Virus record (IMG/VR): IMGVR_UViG_3300042465_005358
Span: 1-25,921 of that record
DNA length: 25,921 nt
Origin: a virus
Direction: 5' to 3' (one strand)
The notes under the pieces were generated by a model that worked only from the letters and a program-made list of their open reading frames with translations, did not search any database and was not told where the DNA came from. Position numbers and translations under genes: made by a program. Positions 9,825 to 18,397 of this stretch are shown here, piece by piece. Within the stretch, counting starts at the first letter, position 1; each line of letters begins with the position of its first letter.

Positions 9825-9852
9825 AGTATACAAGTCTGCGTTCCCGCGTCAA
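9825..9852 (-). promoter_or_regulatory. Sigma70 promoter of leaderless gene at 9817
   Basis: On the minus strand, -35 TTGACG and -10 TATACT with a 16-bp spacer. The expected +1 falls at or next to the A of the start codon. Confidence 0.8.
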
Positions 9853-10506: not shown

Positions 10507-10614
10507 GCGTCTCGCCCCAGACGCTGCATATCGCCAAATGGCGACGCGAGAAATCGCGCACAGCATGGCGCAAGGCTCTGGCGCACGACAGCCCCCTACG
10601 CGGGGCTGTTTCGT
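10507..10614 (+). ncRNA. Putative small RNA 3 of array (promoter unclear)
   Basis: This segment folds well (ATCGCC-AAAT-GGCGA-type and CGCGA-GAAA-TCGCG hairpins) and ends in the ACAGCCCC/GGGGCTGT terminator. A weak promoter (TTGTTT at 10478-10483, 17 bp, TAACAC) is the best I can find, so the 5' end is uncertain. The block CCCAGACGCTGCATATCGC here recurs with one change at 10924-10942. Confidence 0.45.
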
Positions 10615-10616
10615 TT
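10588..10616 (+). terminator. Intrinsic terminator of small RNA 3
   Basis: An 8-bp stem ACAGCCCC (10588-10595) with GGGGCTGT (10602-10609), loop CTACGC, then TTCGTTT. The T-tract forms part of the next -35 box. Confidence 0.85.
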
Positions 10617-10642
10617 GACGGGCGCATGGCGAAGCGTATACT
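10615..10642 (+). promoter_or_regulatory. Sigma70 promoter P4 of small-RNA array
   Basis: -35 TTGACG (10615-10620), 16-bp spacer, -10 TATACT (10637-10642), directly after the preceding terminator. Confidence 0.85.
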
Positions 10643-10648
10643 CATTGC

Positions 10649-10748
10649 AGACATCCGAACCGCGGCGACCGACTCCGCGTGATTGCACTTATGGTGCGTC
10701 CCCCAGGCAAAAGGGGGAGAAACAGCCCCCTACGCGGGGTTGTTTCGT
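10649..10748 (+). ncRNA. Putative small RNA 4 of array
   Basis: A transcript of about 100 nt is predicted. Hairpins visible are CGCGG/CCGCG near 10663-10678, TGCAC/GTGCG near 10685, and CCCCC/GGGGG with an AGGCAAAA loop near 10700-10717, followed by a terminator. No ribosome site with an open frame is present. Confidence 0.65.
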
Positions 10749-10750
10749 TT
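10721..10750 (+). terminator. Intrinsic terminator of small RNA 4
   Basis: Stem AACAGCCCC (10721-10729) with GGGGTTGTT (10736-10744, one G-T pair), loop CTACGC, then TCGTTT. It is near-identical to the small RNA 3 terminator. Confidence 0.85.
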
Positions 10751-10776
10751 GACAGGCGCATGGTGCGGCGTATACT
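10749..10776 (+). promoter_or_regulatory. Sigma70 promoter P5 of small-RNA array
   Basis: -35 TTGACA (10749-10754), 16-bp spacer, -10 TATACT (10771-10776). It has a near-consensus -35 and lies directly after the preceding terminator. Confidence 0.9.
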
Positions 10777-10782
10777 CGCGAA

Positions 10783-10918
10783 ACAAAACCTCCGTGGGCC
10801 GTCCACGGTGCATAGTCGGGAAACCGACCAACCTTCCGCAAGGACTGGCGGACGCCGAAAGGCGAGTGAACAGGTCGAAGTTCACCATACAGCCCCTCAC
10901 GCGGGGCTGTTTTGTTTT
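10783..10918 (+). ncRNA. Putative small RNA 5 of array (highly structured)
   Basis: A transcript of about 135 nt with at least five hairpins in series. They are CCGTGG/CCACGG (10792-10808), GTCGG-GAAA-CCGAC (10815-10828), TCCGC/GCGGA (10835-10852), CGCC-GAAA-GGCG (10853-10864) and GTGAAC/GTTCAC (10866-10885), then the terminator. Two GAAA tetraloops suggest tertiary or protein contacts. The unpaired 5' leader holds ACCTCC, identical to the anti-Shine-Dalgarno core. It does not match any ribozyme, tRNA or tmRNA pattern I know. Confidence 0.7.
10889..10918 (+). terminator. Intrinsic terminator of small RNA 5
   Basis: ACAGCCCC (10889-10896), loop TCACGC, GGGGCTGT (10903-10910), then TTTGTTTT. 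It has the best T-tract in the array. Confidence 0.9.
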
Positions 10919-10951
10919 CCGGTCCCAAACGCTGCATATCGCAAGATCCGC

Positions 10952-13834: not shown

Positions 13835-14136
13835 ACCTCTTCGACCACGCCGAGGCCCAGCGCCGCAAGGAGGTCGGGAAGGCGCTCGCCGCCGACCGCC
13901 GGCACGAACTGCTCGCGGCCGCCCGCGGGTTCGCCGCGTTCATCGCCCGGGAATACGGCACCGTCACGGCCGACGATGTCGCCGAGCTCATGGCCGCCAA
14001 CAACCTGGACTACGCGGACCTCGGGAACGCGGCCGGGTCGGTGTTCGACGCCAAGTTCCAGTGGACGGGCCGGGTCATCCCGAGCAAGCGACCGTCCACC
14101 CACGGCCGCCTCATCCGCGAATGGAGCCTCGCATGA
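13831..14136 (+). CDS. Conserved early phage protein (101 aa)
   Basis: It begins (GTG start) MNLFDHAEAQRRKEVGKAL and contains GTVTADDVAELMAANNLDYA, LGNAAGSVFDAKFQWTGRVI and STHGRLIREWSL. The 'LGNAAGSVF...F.WTG....S...HG..IR.W' pattern recurs in uncharacterised phage proteins near replication genes. The function is not known. Starts and stops overlap with both neighbours (GTGA and ATGA), so it is coupled to them. Confidence 0.75.
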   Translation: MNLFDHAEAQRRKEVGKALAADRRHELLAAARGFAAFIAREYGTVTADDVAELMAANNLDYADLGNAAGSVFDAKFQWTGRVIPSKRPSTHGRLIREWSLA

Positions 14137-14474
14137 TGCTCTCCACCGAAGTTACTGTCGAAGTGTCGGACGCGCTGTTCGGACCTGACGCGGCCGTGCT
14201 CGAGTACCTCGCGGCTCACCAGGTCGAGGCGATCCTCGACGTGCGGTGGGAACGCGAGGACGTTGAACGATTCCACCAGCACGGCAGCGTCGTTCGCGAG
14301 GCGTGGGAGGTGCGGTTCTGGCACCCGTTCAGGATCATCCTCGACGGCGTCGCGTTGGATCACCCATCCAAGGTGCCGAGCGATTTCCCCATGCAGGAGA
14401 TCCTGAAGGCGCTCGAGTCGGCCGAGGTCGCCAAGATGTTGCGCGCCGCCGGCGTGGAAGCGAGGAGGGCGTGA
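14133..14474 (+). CDS. Hypothetical early protein (113 aa)
   Basis: It begins MMLSTEVTVEVSDALFGPD and contains VLEYLAAHQVEAILDVRWER, WHPFRIILDGVALDHPSK and EILKALESAEVAKMLRAAG. The ATG at 14133 overlaps the previous stop (ATGA). I do not recognise a family. It appears to be a mixed alpha/beta protein with acidic patches. Confidence 0.65.
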   Translation: MMLSTEVTVEVSDALFGPDAAVLEYLAAHQVEAILDVRWEREDVERFHQHGSVVREAWEVRFWHPFRIILDGVALDHPSKVPSDFPMQEILKALESAEVAKMLRAAGVEARRA

Positions 14475-14794
14475 TGGATTCACCTACGGGTCAAGTCGCC
14501 ATGACGCTTCGGCACGGCCAGAGCGTGTCGCTCGTCCACCCGGACGGCACCGTGTGCGTCGTGGCGCCGACGCCGAAGCAGATCGGGAAATGCCATATCG
14601 TCATCATCGCACCGAAGGCGGTGCGGATTGAGCGAGACAAAGAAACCGCCGACGAGATCGAACGGCTGCGCGCCGAGCGCGACGAGGCGAGGCGGATGTA
14701 TCTTGCCAGCACCTGTAGCGAAGATGAAATCATTCACGAAATGAAGCGCCATGGTTGGGACTGCTTCAAGGAGGACGGCAAGCCATGCCAGTAG
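14474..14794 (+). CDS. Small coiled-coil protein with WDCFKE motif, paralog A (106 aa)
   Basis: The N-terminal half contains MTLRHGQSVSLVHPDGTVCV. A coiled-coil block TADEIERLRAERDEARRMYL and a C-terminal GWDCFKEDGKPCQ follow. The coiled-coil and WDCFKE modules recur in the proteins at 14960 and 15402, including long identical DNA stretches. The ATG (14474) overlaps the previous stop (TGATG), with GGAGG seven bases upstream. Function is unknown. Confidence 0.7.
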   Translation: MDSPTGQVAMTLRHGQSVSLVHPDGTVCVVAPTPKQIGKCHIVIIAPKAVRIERDKETADEIERLRAERDEARRMYLASTCSEDEIIHEMKRHGWDCFKEDGKPCQ

Positions 14795-14976
14795 GCGGTA
14801 GATACAAGCACACGAAGTACGGGAGGAGCGCATCTGGCGACGATGTGTTCTTCATCCTCATCCCGATCTTCGCCGTCATCCTGCTCATTGCGATGATTGG
14901 CGAGGCACGGAGATCAAGTAGCGGCACGAACCACAGAACCACACAGAAGGAGACTTGCAATGACCACAACGACTGA
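14785..14976 (+). CDS. Small single-span membrane protein (63 aa)
   Basis: It begins MPVGGRYKHTKYGRSASGDD and has one hydrophobic segment, VFFILIPIFAVILLIAMIG (about 21-39), then a polar tail. The N-terminus is basic, so it probably lies in the cytoplasm. It overlaps its neighbours at both ends. A role at the host membrane early in infection, such as exclusion, is possible but not shown. A lysis role is less likely given the early operon. Confidence 0.55.
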   Translation: MPVGGRYKHTKYGRSASGDDVFFILIPIFAVILLIAMIGEARRSSSGTNHRTTQKETCNDHND

Positions 14977-15229
14977 CACTTCCGCCATGACTCTCGCACA
15001 GAAGTCCGACCGAATCCTCGCCCAGACGCGGGGCTTGAGCGGCGCAACCCCCAACGCCACGCGATTGATTGAGGAGTTGCGATTGGCGTTGGAATCAAAC
15101 AGAAACGATGTTCAACGCCTCACCGCCGAGCGCGACGAGGCGAGGCGAGAGGTGTGCAATCTGTCCATCCACCTACCGCGTGACTATGCGCTCAAGCGCG
15201 GCTGGGACTGCTTCAAGGAGGAGCCATGA
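14960..15229 (+). CDS. Small coiled-coil protein with WDCFKE motif, paralog B (89 aa)
   Basis: It begins MTTTTDTSAMTLAQKSDRIL, has QRLTAERDEARREVCNL in the middle, and ends in LKRGWDCFKEEP. It shares the AERDEARR block and the C-terminal GWDCFKE with the gene at 14474. The ATG at 14960 has a strong AGAAGGAG site. It overlaps the previous gene by 17 bp and the next by 4 bp (ATGA). Confidence 0.7.
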   Translation: MTTTTDTSAMTLAQKSDRILAQTRGLSGATPNATRLIEELRLALESNRNDVQRLTAERDEARREVCNLSIHLPRDYALKRGWDCFKEEP

Positions 15230-15405
15230 CCGAACGAGACAAGATGGCGATTGAAATGCTCCGCGTAGTTTTGCAGACCACCAAAGACTGGAATGAAAAT
15301 GCGCTCAATGAATGGTATTGGGATGGCACGGCCAGTGCAGCGGACCTTGCATATCGCATGGCAGACGCCATGCTGCGCGCACAAAAGGAGGAGCAAACCA
15401 CATGA
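15226..15405 (+). CDS. Small hypothetical early protein (59 aa)
   Basis: It begins MTERDKMAIEMLRVVLQTTK and contains NEWYWDGTASAADLAYRMAD before an Ala/Gln-rich end. It is helical, with no recognised family. The ATG at 15226 overlaps the previous stop (ATGA) and follows AAGGAGGA. It ends in the ATGA overlap with the next gene. Confidence 0.7.
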   Translation: MTERDKMAIEMLRVVLQTTKDWNENALNEWYWDGTASAADLAYRMADAMLRAQKEEQTT

Positions 15406-15653
15406 CCGACTTGGACATCGTCACCCGGCTGCGAGCATTGGCTGCTGCATTAGCACAGGGTGAGTGGGTTGCGCTAACAACCACATGTTCTACTGCCGCC
15501 GACGAGATCGAACGGCTGCGGGCCGAATGCGAACGCCTGCGTAAAGACGGCCTGCGCCACATTGATACGTTGGTAGCTGAGCGCGATGAGGCGCGGGCAA
15601 GAAACGTGCGATTGCTCTCGCAGTTGCAGGAATACGAAGTGAGGGAACTCTGA
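15402..15653 (+). CDS. Small coiled-coil protein, paralog C (83 aa)
   Basis: It begins MTDLDIVTRLRALAAALAQ and has AADEIERLRAECERLRKDGL followed by VAERDEARARNVRLLSQL. These repeat the DEIERLRAE and AERDEAR modules of the genes at 14474 and 14960, but the WDCFKE end is missing. A strong AAGGAGGA ribosome site precedes the ATG. Function is unknown. Confidence 0.7.
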   Translation: MTDLDIVTRLRALAAALAQGEWVALTTTCSTAADEIERLRAECERLRKDGLRHIDTLVAERDEARARNVRLLSQLQEYEVREL

Positions 15654-15856
15654 TGCCGAACCCCGACTACGTTCTTGCAATGGTGCGCCAGCGCGCCAAC
15701 GCCAAGCTCGCCGCCGCCGAGAAACAACCTGCGAAGCACGCCGACTTCGCCGAGTCGTGCCGCGCCGAGGCCGCGTTCTACTGGCGCATCGCCGACGCGA
15801 TGGAGGAACTCATGCGCGAAGCCGCGGACGCACGGAGGGAGGCCATCCGTGCGTGA
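15653..15856 (+). CDS. Small helical early protein (67 aa)
   Basis: It begins MPNPDYVLAMVRQRANAKLA and contains CRAEAAFYWRIADAMEELMR. It is Ala/Glu/Arg-rich and likely one or two helices. The ATG overlaps the previous stop (TGATG), and the end overlaps the next gene by 8 bp. No family recognised. Confidence 0.65.
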   Translation: MPNPDYVLAMVRQRANAKLAAAEKQPAKHADFAESCRAEAAFYWRIADAMEELMREAADARREAIRA

Positions 15857-16097
15857 CTACGGCGACGAGCACACCGCACCTTCGTGTTATGGAGAGCCTG
15901 GGGGCGGGGCGTTCCCGCCCCCGGGCGCTGACATATGCGAACGCCTCGCCATCACGTGGGTCGGCATGGGCGAGATGGCGAACGCCGAACGCGCCGAGGC
16001 ACGCGCCGAGATCCTGCGCCTGCGCGCCGACCTCGAGTTGTGCCAGCGGTGCCTGCCGACGCACATCGCGAAGATCCTGTACGAGGGGAGCGGCTGA
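15849..16097 (+). CDS. Small hypothetical early protein (82 aa)
   Basis: The chosen start is GTG at 15849, which has GGAGG upstream and overlaps the previous gene. The protein has a Gly/Pro-rich N-terminal part (GEPGGGAFPPPGADIC) and a helical end, NAERAEARAEILRLRADLEL. The cysteine in LCQRCLPTH forms a CxxC pair. Function is unknown. The downstream gene overlaps by one base (TGATG). Confidence 0.6.
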   Translation: MRDYGDEHTAPSCYGEPGGGAFPPPGADICERLAITWVGMGEMANAERAEARAEILRLRADLELCQRCLPTHIAKILYEGSG

Positions 16098-16285
16098 TGA
16101 AACCCGGGAGAGGCGAGACGGAAGAGGACGTTGTGGACCGCGTACGGGCGAGCGGGACAGACGATCCGCTCACCCTCGAGCTCATGCAGGAGGTCGTGTA
16201 CCTGCGGCACGAACTGGCGAAGGCGCTGCGTCGGGTGAACGATTACGTGCTGCGAGAGACGAACCACAGGAGGCGAGATGATTAG
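16097..16285 (+). CDS. Small helical early protein (62 aa)
   Basis: It begins MKPGRGETEEDVVDRVRASG and has LTLELMQEVVYLRHELAKAL before a basic end. It is a short helical protein with no recognised family. The ATG overlaps the previous stop, and it overlaps the RusA gene by 8 bp. It is part of the same polycistronic transcript. Confidence 0.65.
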   Translation: MKPGRGETEEDVVDRVRASGTDDPLTLELMQEVVYLRHELAKALRRVNDYVLRETNHRRRDD

Positions 16286-16688
16286 TTTCACCGTGCCGGG
16301 ACTGGCCGCGCCGCAGGGAAGCAAGCGGGCGATCCGGCTCCGCAGCGGGCGCGTCGCGCTCGTGGAGTCATCCGCGAAGGTAAAGCCATATCGCGCCGTG
16401 TTCGCGCTGGCGGCGAGGCAGGCGTGGACCGAACCGCCGGCCGATGACGCGGTCGCCGTCGAACTGCTGTTCCGGTTCCCGCGCCCCAGGTCGCACTACA
16501 CAAGCACTGGCATGCTGCGCTCAAGCGCGCCGCGTGCGCCAGGGCGCCCGGACCTCGACAAGCTGTGCAGAGCTGCTTTGGACGCCATGACCGGGGTCGT
16601 GTACGTGGATGACGCGCAGGTCGCCATCCTGTCGGCAGCCAAGGAATGGGGAGACACGGCGGAAACTTTGGTAAAGGTCTGGGCGTGA
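16278..16688 (+). CDS. rusA: RusA-family Holliday-junction resolvase
   Basis: This 136-residue protein matches the RusA length. The signature GRPDLDKLCRAALDAMTG (about 89-106) followed by VVYVDDAQVAILSAAK (about 107-122) contains the acidic residues D92, D94 and D111 that correspond to the catalytic metal ligands of Escherichia coli RusA. The enzyme cuts four-way junctions made during replication and recombination, which helps clear DNA for packaging. It ends the chain of overlapping early genes and lies upstream of a separate annealing-protein unit. Confidence 0.9.
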   Translation: MISFTVPGLAAPQGSKRAIRLRSGRVALVESSAKVKPYRAVFALAARQAWTEPPADDAVAVELLFRFPRPRSHYTSTGMLRSSAPRAPGRPDLDKLCRAALDAMTGVVYVDDAQVAILSAAKEWGDTAETLVKVWA

Positions 16689-16704
16689 CCACTACCATGT
16701 GTCC

Positions 16705-17286
16705 ATGCGACAAGACCTGAAACTCACGGTACTTCAGAAGCAATTCGATACGTTGAAGCAATCGCTTCGACGTTCACGTGTTTCGTCGCATACCCACAAT
16801 CTTGGCGATTTGGAACAAAGTGGGGCAACGGCCGGAAACGTCGTTACATGGAATGGACTCATTTGGGAACCTGCGGTGGTTCCGTCGCCTGTCATTGCGT
16901 TGACTCACTCCTCTGCGTTCTTGGCAGCCAACGTCTCCATGCCGGCCGCGAACACGTGGTACGACGGACCTGTATTGTCCCTTGCGGACGGAACATGGTT
17001 GGTTATGGCGAGCGCAACCATCGGGCGCACGGGAACCACTGCTGGGAACTACAACATTCGCATTTCCACCGGAACGACGCACTATGCCAGCGTGCAGCAA
17101 TATCACGCGAGCGTGGCGAACAATTATGCGGCTCTCAGCTGCAATGCCATCGTGACGCTTGGCCAAACCACGACGATCAAATTGCAGGCCGCCGGATCTA
17201 TCACGGCCGACATTCTGCGCGCTGATACGCCAAATAATGCATCCGGCCTCAATGCCACTGGCCTCGTGGCGATCAAGATCGCTTGA
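16705..17286 (+). CDS. Tail-fibre-like beta protein on the early strand (193 aa)
   Basis: The N-terminus is a short coiled coil (MRQDLKLTVLQKQFDTLKQS). HTHNLGDLEQSGATAGNVVTW and NGLIWEPA follow, a motif typical of phage tail-fibre and receptor-binding proteins. The rest is beta-rich with Ser/Thr/Asn and a TWLVMASATIGRTGTTAG pattern like C1q/TNF-type trimer heads. The ATG at 16705 lies six bases after TACCAT, so it may be leaderless; a GTG at 16699 is the alternative. It is AT-richer than its neighbours, which suggests separate acquisition. Its place outside the late blocks is odd. Confidence 0.6.
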   Translation: MRQDLKLTVLQKQFDTLKQSLRRSRVSSHTHNLGDLEQSGATAGNVVTWNGLIWEPAVVPSPVIALTHSSAFLAANVSMPAANTWYDGPVLSLADGTWLVMASATIGRTGTTAGNYNIRISTGTTHYASVQQYHASVANNYAALSCNAIVTLGQTTTIKLQAAGSITADILRADTPNNASGLNATGLVAIKIA

Positions 17287-17287
17287 C

Positions 17288-17315
17288 TTGACAACCTTAT
17301 ACCGGGGCGTATACT
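17288..17315 (+). promoter_or_regulatory. Strong sigma70 promoter for the annealing-protein unit
   Basis: -35 TTGACA (17288-17293, perfect), 16-bp spacer, -10 TATACT (17310-17315). It gives a leader of about 50 nt with a good AGAGGAGA ribosome site. Confidence 0.9.
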
Positions 17316-17371: not shown

Positions 17372-18397
17372 ATGACTGCATTGGCACGACTTGATGACGA
17401 GAAGCGCGAGCTGCTCGCCCGCACCCTGTGCGCGGGCGCGAGCCGCGACGAGATGGAACTGTTCTTCAGCGTCTGCGACCGTACCGGGCTGGACCCGTTC
17501 GCTCGCCAGATTTACGCCGTCAAGCGGTGGGACAGCCGCGCCGGCCGCGACGTGATGCAGACGCAGGTCAGCATCGACGGGTTCCGCCTGGTTGCCCAGC
17601 GCAGCGGCGAGTACGCTGGCCAGACCTCGGTGGCGTTCTGCGGCACGGACGGGCAGTGGACCGACGTATGGCTCCACGACGAGCCGCCCGCCGCCGCCCG
17701 TGTCGGGGTCTACCGCAAGGGGTTTGTCGAGGCGGTCACCGCCGTCGCCCTGTTCCGCGAGTACGCGCAGCGCAAGAAGGACGGCGGCCTCACGGGCATG
17801 TGGGGCAAGATGCCGTCCGTGATGATCGCCAAGTGCGCCGAGGCGCTCGCCCTCCGCAAGGCGTTCCCTGCCGAACTGTCCGGGCTCTATACCGCCGAGG
17901 AGATGTCGCAGGCGGATAACCCGCCCGCGGCCCCCGCCCCGCAGTCCCACGTCGTGGCCGTCCTGCCGCCCCCGGCCGCAGAACCCGCCACGATGCCCCA
18001 GGACGCGCCGGCAGTCGCCGATGCCCCCAAGCCCGTCCGCAAGGCCCGGAAGCCGCAGGAGGCGCCTGCGGCCAAGCCGAGCCCCAACGATGTGCCCGTC
18101 GCGGGCCCGACCGACTCCTACCCCGACGAGTACGAGGGATCGTTTCGCATCCACCGCGTCGTGCGCCGCCCGGGCCGCGCCATCGCCATCGAGGCCACGG
18201 GCCAGCACGGGCCCGCTTGGATCGCCACCACCGTCCGGGAGTACGCGGACCTCGCCGAGGAGTCGATCAACGGCAGCCTCACGATGGACGTGGCCCGCGT
18301 CGGCAAGGCGCTCACCGTCATGCGCGTGCTGCGCTCCGAGCAGCCGCCGGCCCCCGAACCCGCTCCCGTCACGGACGGCAGCGATCTCCCCTTCTGA
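17372..18397 (+). CDS. bet: Bet/RecT-family single-strand annealing protein with SSB-like tail
   Basis: Residues about 1-190 carry the Bet-family core: LFFSVCDRTGLDPFARQIYA followed by VKRW, then QVSIDGFRLVAQRSGEYAGQ and GMWGKMPSVMIAKCAEALAL with RKAFPAELSGLY. These proteins anneal complementary single strands and promote phage recombination. A Pro/Ala linker (about 190-250) and a small C-terminal domain (about 250-325) follow. The last residues are GSDLPF, close to the acidic C-terminal tip of SSB (DDDIPF). No partner exonuclease is visible in the window. It has its own strong promoter and precedes the Gp157-family gene. Confidence 0.9.
   Translation: MTALARLDDEKRELLARTLCAGASRDEMELFFSVCDRTGLDPFARQIYAVKRWDSRAGRDVMQTQVSIDGFRLVAQRSGEYAGQTSVAFCGTDGQWTDVWLHDEPPAAARVGVYRKGFVEAVTAVALFREYAQRKKDGGLTGMWGKMPSVMIAKCAEALALRKAFPAELSGLYTAEEMSQADNPPAAPAPQSHVVAVLPPPAAEPATMPQDAPAVADAPKPVRKARKPQEAPAAKPSPNDVPVAGPTDSYPDEYEGSFRIHRVVRRPGRAIAIEATGQHGPAWIATTVREYADLAEESINGSLTMDVARVGKALTVMRVLRSEQPPAPEPAPVTDGSDLPF

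Follow-up and report, generated by a model that had tools for sequence, protein, structure and literature searches.

Small genes of uncultivated phages that appear to be assembled from unrelated pieces at short conserved DNA joints

Why do neighbouring small genes of a phage carry short stretches of nearly identical DNA? The question is raised by IMG/VR virus record IMGVR_UViG_3300042465_005358, of which positions 1 to 25,921 were analysed (25,921 nucleotides (nt), hereafter the window), and within it by three genes on the + strand: gene A (14474..14794, 106 amino acids (aa)), gene B (14960..15229, 89 aa) and gene C (15402..15653, 83 aa). An initial annotation of the window had read them as mosaic paralogs produced by recent internal recombination. 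Our comparisons indicate that they belong to a large, previously unnamed set of small genes that uncultivated phages hold and that are made by swapping unrelated pieces at short DNA joints. Gene A consists of an N-module (aa 1-57), a 25-nt ADEIERLR joint (14646..14670), a 24-nt ERDEARR joint (14671..14694), an M-module and a GWDCFKEDGKPCQ tail, the GWDCFKEDGK part of which lies at 14753..14782. Gene B has a AQKSDRILAQTRGLSGATPNAT N-module, an ERDEARR joint (15124..15147), an M-module and a GWDCFKEEP tail (15200..15229), and gene C a DIVTRLR N-module, a 25-nt ADEIERLR joint (15496..15520), an ERDEAR joint (15579..15598) and a fixed RNVRLLSQLQEYEVREL end.

The near-identical DNA that had been claimed for these genes is there: genes A and B are letter-identical over 24 nt at 14671/15124 (AERDEARR) and over 20 nt at 14756/15203 (WDCFKE), and genes A and C over 25 nt at 14646/15496 (ADEIERLR). 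The protein motifs are distributed somewhat less evenly than proposed. The GWDCFKE ending is indeed carried by A and B, gene C having another end module in place of the WDCFKE tail, while DEIERLRAE occurs in A and C and not in B, and the AERDEARR motif is reduced to AERDEAR in C. In 1000 dinucleotide shuffles the longest common word was at most 15 nt for A/B and at most 13 nt for A/C, versus 24 and 25 nt observed. When synonymous codons were redrawn with the proteins kept, 221 of 5000 redraws attained the A/B maximum and 19 of 5000 that of A/C. The 24-mer itself reappeared in 16 of 20,000 redraws and the tail 20-mer in 3921 of 20,000, so that the tail identity in the window, taken alone, is largely explained by the shared amino acids. 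Codon bias, which the initial annotation had named as what would undo its reading, thus falls short for the ERDEARR and DEIERLR stretches and comes close to sufficing for the tail.

In order to place these genes in a family, we searched IMG/VR with a degenerate DNA pattern for GWDCFKE[D/E] and with two protein scans. This yielded at least 276 loci and at least 215 distinct tail genes, two of them from the window; 192 genes with an ERDEARR-like joint and a WDC[FWY]-like tail were kept under these strict criteria and 23 were dropped. All family counts given here are among the matches listed, a partial sample biased to GWDCFKE, and all family loci are IMG/VR or metagenome-assembled genome (MAG) contigs. 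The 192 strict genes share one plan: a variable N-module, the ERDEARR joint, a variable M-module and the GWDCFKEDGK tail. A cysteine stands at the tenth position from the joint start in 178 of the 198 genes with a joint score of at least 5. The M-module mostly spans 21-24 residues between the joint and WDC, and the tail mostly 8-11 residues from the WDC tryptophan to the stop. In some genes of loci L064 and L086 the ERDEARR-to-WDCFK module occurs twice in tandem, which looks like a fusion of two cassettes. The richest array among the matches listed is found in L054, with eight tail genes on one contig of 10.7 kilobases.

Modules clustered at 60% amino-acid identity are combined almost freely. 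Two or more N-clusters are found with 34 of the 35 M-clusters that hold at least two genes, two or more M-clusters with 25 of the 28 such N-clusters, and 186 distinct N-M pairs occur among the 192 genes. Gene pairs with the M-module in common number 177, those with the N-module in common 135 and those with both 6, where free assortment expects 1.3; a slight linkage thus remains. The genes that follow the tail vary too (32 of 33 M-clusters). Whole M- or N-modules are 76-95% identical in DNA while joined to unrelated partners. In pairs with the same M and different N (n=171), mean DNA identity steps from 0.39 to 0.90 at the first base of the joint; in pairs with the same N and different M (n=128), it is 0.89 and then 0.59, 0.52 and down to 0.27 after the joint. 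Once the tail is passed, identity drops as well, from 0.96 to about 0.3. In 144 of 171 same-M pairs and 120 of 128 same-N pairs the breakpoint is no more than 12 nt away from the joint. The assortment and the identity steps among the 192 genes strongly support the module shuffling first proposed for the window, on a scale far beyond it. The phages could not be divided into unlinked lineages, since 128 of 141 loci are connected in one network of DNA matches of at least 250 nt.

What did not hold is the "recent internal" origin of the repeats. Within loci, identity is 0.843 for the joints (82 pairs) and 0.888 for the tails; between loci, it is 0.832 and 0.885. Of the 192 strict genes, 29 contain the 24-mer that A and B share. 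Since two joints of the same locus resemble each other no more than joints of different loci do, recent duplication in the window was rejected in favour of exchange across the phage population. The near-identical stretches are therefore best read as joints common to many phages rather than as traces of a duplication that this genome underwent recently.

Conservation of the joints extends to the DNA level. Where ERDEARR is exact (154 genes), its codons are mostly GAG CGC GAC GAG GCG AGG CGG. AGG encodes the sixth joint residue in 125 of 191 genes, versus 156 of 1598 arginine codons elsewhere in the same genes. For the second joint, ADEIERLR, 45 distinct genes were recovered, its first four codons being dominated by GCC, GAC, GAG and ATC. 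The joint codons are fixed beyond the protein's requirement. The commonest 21-mer of the ERDEARR joint occurs in 44 of the 192 genes, which together hold 93 distinct 21-mers.

The tail has a further role in the DNA, as its codons AAG-GAG-GA form a Shine-Dalgarno site. The dipeptide KE is encoded as AAGGAG in 157 of 163 tails versus 43 of 87 upstream KE pairs in the same open reading frames (ORFs) (Fisher p 2e-18); this sample was partly picked by the GWDCFKE motif, but its K and E codons were left degenerate. GGAGG is present in 137 of 192 genes versus 158 of 1373 controls, although the spans compared were unequal (33 and 24 nt), and its spacing to the start is 7 nt in 89 of 106 cases. An NTGA overlap between the stop and the start of the next gene was found in 131 of 185 genes and in 496 of 1373 control ORF ends, a control that includes spurious ORFs. 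The second tail of the window had been credited with supplying the next gene's ribosome site, which is correct, but the tail of gene A does so too: AAGGAGGA lies at 14768-14775 ahead of the ATG at 14785, and at 15215-15222 ahead of the ATG at 15226. In gene B this includes AAGGAGG at 15215-15221 and an ATGA stop/start overlap with the following gene, gene X (15226..15405, +, 59 aa; phrog_2201, E 4.7e-07, unknown function). Gene X itself has the ending QKEEQTT, again with AAGGAGG, and its stop overlaps the start of gene C in an ATGA. It is one of several unrelated genes of the islands, together with the stand-alone A-module and a gene of L121, whose ends are different KE[D/E] tails containing this site. 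This suggests that translation of the downstream gene is probably what preserves the KE[D/E] part, and the protein what preserves GWDCF.

How the modules are replaced can be followed in the close relatives of the window. Loci L120-L124 and L126/L127 (L229 being the same contig as L123) are 87-97% identical to it near the three genes, on both sides, and carry differing alleles between 14474 and about 15588, which makes 14474-15588 a replaceable cassette island. The island starts at the stop codon of the left conserved flank gene (14133..14474, +). Identity over the left flank is 87.9-94.3% and stops at 14474 in L120-L124, and the match to L126/L127 extends to 14640. The right edge is the ERDEAR joint of gene C, where identity resumes, at 15579 for L121 and L122 and at 15588 for L123 and L126/L127; it is followed by the right conserved flank (15653..16688, +), which contains a RusA-like resolvase gene (16278-16688). 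An allele series extends over seven related loci, the window included. The N-module of gene A stands alone as a protein of 59-61 aa in L121, L122, L123, L124 and L127; L120 has it fused to the gene C ending, and the window to an M-module plus tail. The gene ending in RNVRLLSQLQEYEVREL has five N-parts over six loci (window, L120, L121, L123, and L122, which equals L127). We considered L120 as a direct deletion between A and C and dropped this idea: its coil differs, so that L120 is an allele and not a clean deletion product.

In front, L120-L124 carry a DNA methyltransferase-like gene, assigned by PHROGs in L120 and L121 and by likeness in the others. The genes at L120:2721-3992 and L121:3063-3986 are two different DNA methyltransferase genes at the same island position, and both are absent from the window.

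A mechanism has to account for the modular layout, the near-free assortment, the sharp steps at the joints, the codon fixation, the Shine-Dalgarno codons and the allele replacement between flanks. We consider it likely that they result from homologous exchange at short conserved boundary sequences, which here lie within coding sequence and double as a ribosome-binding site. The locus would be a cassette island in an early operon with three kinds of boundary: the ERDEARR and ADEIERLR joints, both in frame, and the GWDCFKEDGK tail, which overlaps the ribosome site and start of the next gene. Because the joints keep the frame and most tails put AAGGAGGA shortly before an overlapping start, a swap would give an intact protein and a translated downstream gene. 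Exchange would proceed by annealing or strand exchange across some 20-30 identical bases. In the phage of the window the recombinase could plausibly be the RecT-like single-strand annealing protein encoded at 17372..18397 (+; phrog_2780, E 1.2e-64), whose gene is part of the same operon as genes A, B and C, as is the RusA gene. The minimal pairing length is reported as 23-27 base pairs (bp) for Red-beta and 31-34 bp for RecA in the available portion of PMC3945230, and Red is described as recombining diverged sequences in that of PMC2327257. With joints of 20-25 bp and a RecT, the window is in keeping with these reports.

Several points weigh against this reading. Random gene pairs have an exact joint run of at least 20 bp in only 16.5% of cases, and of at least 23 bp in 7.9%, so that many present-day joints are short substrates. 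The clusters were built on sequence beside the joint, which partly sharpens the identity steps, although the drop to background identity was not built in. Among 50 records behind family loci, some of them possibly fragments and 37 of them with a match to the strict tail DNA pattern, only 7 were found to carry RecT; a Sak4-like AAA_24 domain passed the cut-off in 3 of the 50 and reached E 0.001 in 16. RecT was accordingly rejected as a universal recombinase; no single recombinase explains all loci, and either the recombinases differ or the host supplies them. Exchange is read from the sequences, and a tie to host interaction is conjecture.

Joints could instead have arisen by illegitimate recombination at random points, followed by selection for coiled-coil and tail protein motifs, the DNA of the joints being kept by the protein and the ribosome site. 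This would agree with the frequent return of the tail 20-mer in the redraws (3921 of 20,000), with the constraint that the ribosome site puts on tail codons and with the short exact runs that random gene pairs often share. It does not predict that breakpoints concentrate at the joint, nor that synonymous codons are fixed in ERDEARR, for which we know of no ribosome-site role. We therefore regard this alternative as unlikely. Conservation of joint DNA beyond the protein's need and combinatorial exchange would also be expected of a dedicated site-specific system acting on the joints, whether a recombinase, an invertase or a diversity-generating reverse transcriptase. The joints are too variable to fit this easily (93 distinct 21-mers in 192 genes), and RVT_1 was found in 0 of 50 records, some of them fragments, in a search that did not extend to resolvase and integrase families. 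A diversity-generating retroelement is thus unlikely, and such a system in general seems to us quite improbable.

All loci come from IMG/VR or MAG contigs and the joints are short frame-keeping repeats, so that unrelated genes might have been joined at 20-25 nt repeats during metagenome assembly. Yet 13 of the 192 N-joint-M-tail combinations recur letter-identical under at least two metagenome numbers, read by hand, some of which may be reassemblies of the same samples, and seven loci carry whole alleles between conserved flanks. Chimeric assembly is for these reasons a very improbable source of the family. Ordinary coiled-coil convergence with codon bias and no exchange, for which one could only invoke that ERDEARR and DEIERLR look to us like typical charged coil sequences, is refuted by the module assortment, the shuffles and synonymous redraws, and the 76-95% DNA identity along modules with unrelated partners, and is hardly credible.

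If homologous exchange at the joints is accepted, one may go further and propose that the joints are evolved and maintained recombination sites. They would define a natural plug-in format, each cassette having a coding joint and a tail that serves as docking motif, ribosome site of the next gene and recombination homology, by which an entire phage community shares an open pool of heads and tips and continually renews its early proteins, a combinatorial library kept up without a dedicated enzyme. We put this forward only tentatively, as something possible rather than expected.

Parts of this organization have precedents. The ninR region of lambda is said to have been described by Kroger and Hobom in 1982 as a "chain of interlinked genes", in which small early genes are joined by overlapping stop and start codons. 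The likeness is that stop and start codons overlap while the end of the upstream gene holds the ribosome site, an NTGA overlap being present here in 131 of 185 tail genes, and we know of no intragenic joints in lambda ninR. The closer precedent is the model of phage mosaicism by short conserved boundary sequences, for which the portion of PMC3029335 available to us cites Clark et al. 2001 (HK620) and Susskind & Botstein 1978 (P22). As in that model, unrelated modules meet here at short conserved DNA open to homologous recombination and are recombined differently among related phages. As far as that portion goes, the differences are that our boundaries lie inside coding sequence and divide one gene into exchangeable parts, that one boundary combines a protein tail with a ribosome site and a stop/start overlap, and that about 190 genes are concerned. 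The same source reports gp67/gp68 of Island3, among the Cluster I mycobacteriophages, unrelated proteins with a common C-terminal 18 residues and about 50 bp of similar DNA, which it reads as recombination. In the text available this is one isolated case, called the first in mycobacteriophages, with no assortment described (PMC3029335). Domain mosaicism, in which unrelated phage proteins share fragments and shuffling is ongoing, is treated in PMC10684548; relative to what is accessible of that study, our joints are short, about 7-11 aa. The principle of homologous exchange at short boundary sequences is thus old (PMC3029335, in the part cited). What appears new, within the literature and databases searched, is that the joints lie inside genes, that the tail has three duties and that so many genes are involved.

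Nor was the family recognized by these resources. No curated family of Pfam, PHROGs or NCBIfam spans ERDEARR to WDCFKE. The tail module reached at best E 0.0011 against PHROGs, in 3 of 64 members and with unknown function, and E 0.0045 against Pfam, in 1 of 25 members, the widest Pfam match having E 0.029 in 6. Searches by tblastn and blastn of 50,697 phage records, with low-complexity filtering on, gave nothing convincing, and the strings WDCFKE, RGWDCF, AERDEARR and RDEARRE were not found in the literature searched. A large phage protein family is therefore unrecognised by the libraries and phage records searched here. It also bears on a wider issue. Clear boundary sequences are described as hard to find, and the homologous versus illegitimate origin of phage mosaics as a long-standing question (PMC3029335, in the portion consulted). 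One short sequence apparently combines the roles of protein motif, ribosome site and exchange point. The joints mark the places at which these mosaics arise and probably reveal the way in which they do so, and nearly two hundred natural exchange products with identifiable joints make minimal homology, breakpoint position and recombinase measurable.

No function was assigned to A, B or C by Pfam, PHROG or NCBIfam. The constant C-terminal tail and the variable heads and tips suggest, as our most likely guess and still a conjecture, that the tail would bind a common partner while the variable heads would set specificity for changing targets. The model of gene B (predicted local distance difference test (pLDDT) 79) has three predicted helices, 12-24, 31-68 and 73-80, and had one match in a viral fold library, at E 7. 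The model of the gene A N-module (pLDDT 63.5) gave CsrA at E 1.1-3.5 with Foldseek and at Z 3.9, 2.9 and 2.8 with VIA. Comparison with CsrA by hhalign gave E 0.033, and 6 of 200 column shuffles were equally good. The likeness to CsrA/RsmA includes the stand-alone size, the strand order and an APK-V-R stretch, CsrA chains recurring in both the Foldseek and the VIA lists. There was no Pfam CsrA match, and the PHROG CsrA models were unmatched. A scan for distant relatives of this module returned 7 loci, all close relatives already found, and tblastn in phages only matches of E 4-8. The gene A N-module may thus weakly resemble CsrA, which we consider a lead.

The window is a podovirus-like record, judged by its terminase, head-tail adaptor, capsid and tail genes. 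Its closest annotated terminases, at about 70% identity, are those of MW202640 and MW202722, uncultivated Manatee Spring podoviruses in which a search for the tail-gene family gave no family gene. A scan of cellular genomes returned two stretches: L278, a DIVTTLRR...WDCFKEER gene on a contig binned in an actinobacterium MAG, which we read as a phage contig, and L277, which we read as a chance match.

Between genes A and B lies a gene for a 63-aa small protein with a hydrophobic stretch (14785..14976, +; downstream cluster 0), itself a cassette. Its relatives sit after six tail genes, gene A included, with six different M-clusters, and it may be a mobile mini-gene of its own. The gene cluster runs on into RusA-like, RecT-like and Mu Gam-like genes. 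Further upstream, there are repeated copies (10615 and 10749; spans 10588-10642, 10722-10776 and 10889-10927) of a hairpin with a strong TTGAC[A/G]-16-TATACT promoter-like site after it, possibly forming the divergent early control region. More sites of this type are found at 17288 (+), ahead of RecT, and at 9852 (-). An open frame at 16699-17286 occupies the region between RusA and RecT (16689-17287). It looks like an inserted gene, because the match to L120, L121, L122, L124 and L126/L127 jumps from about 16689 to 17287, and its predicted product looks fibre-like by eye.
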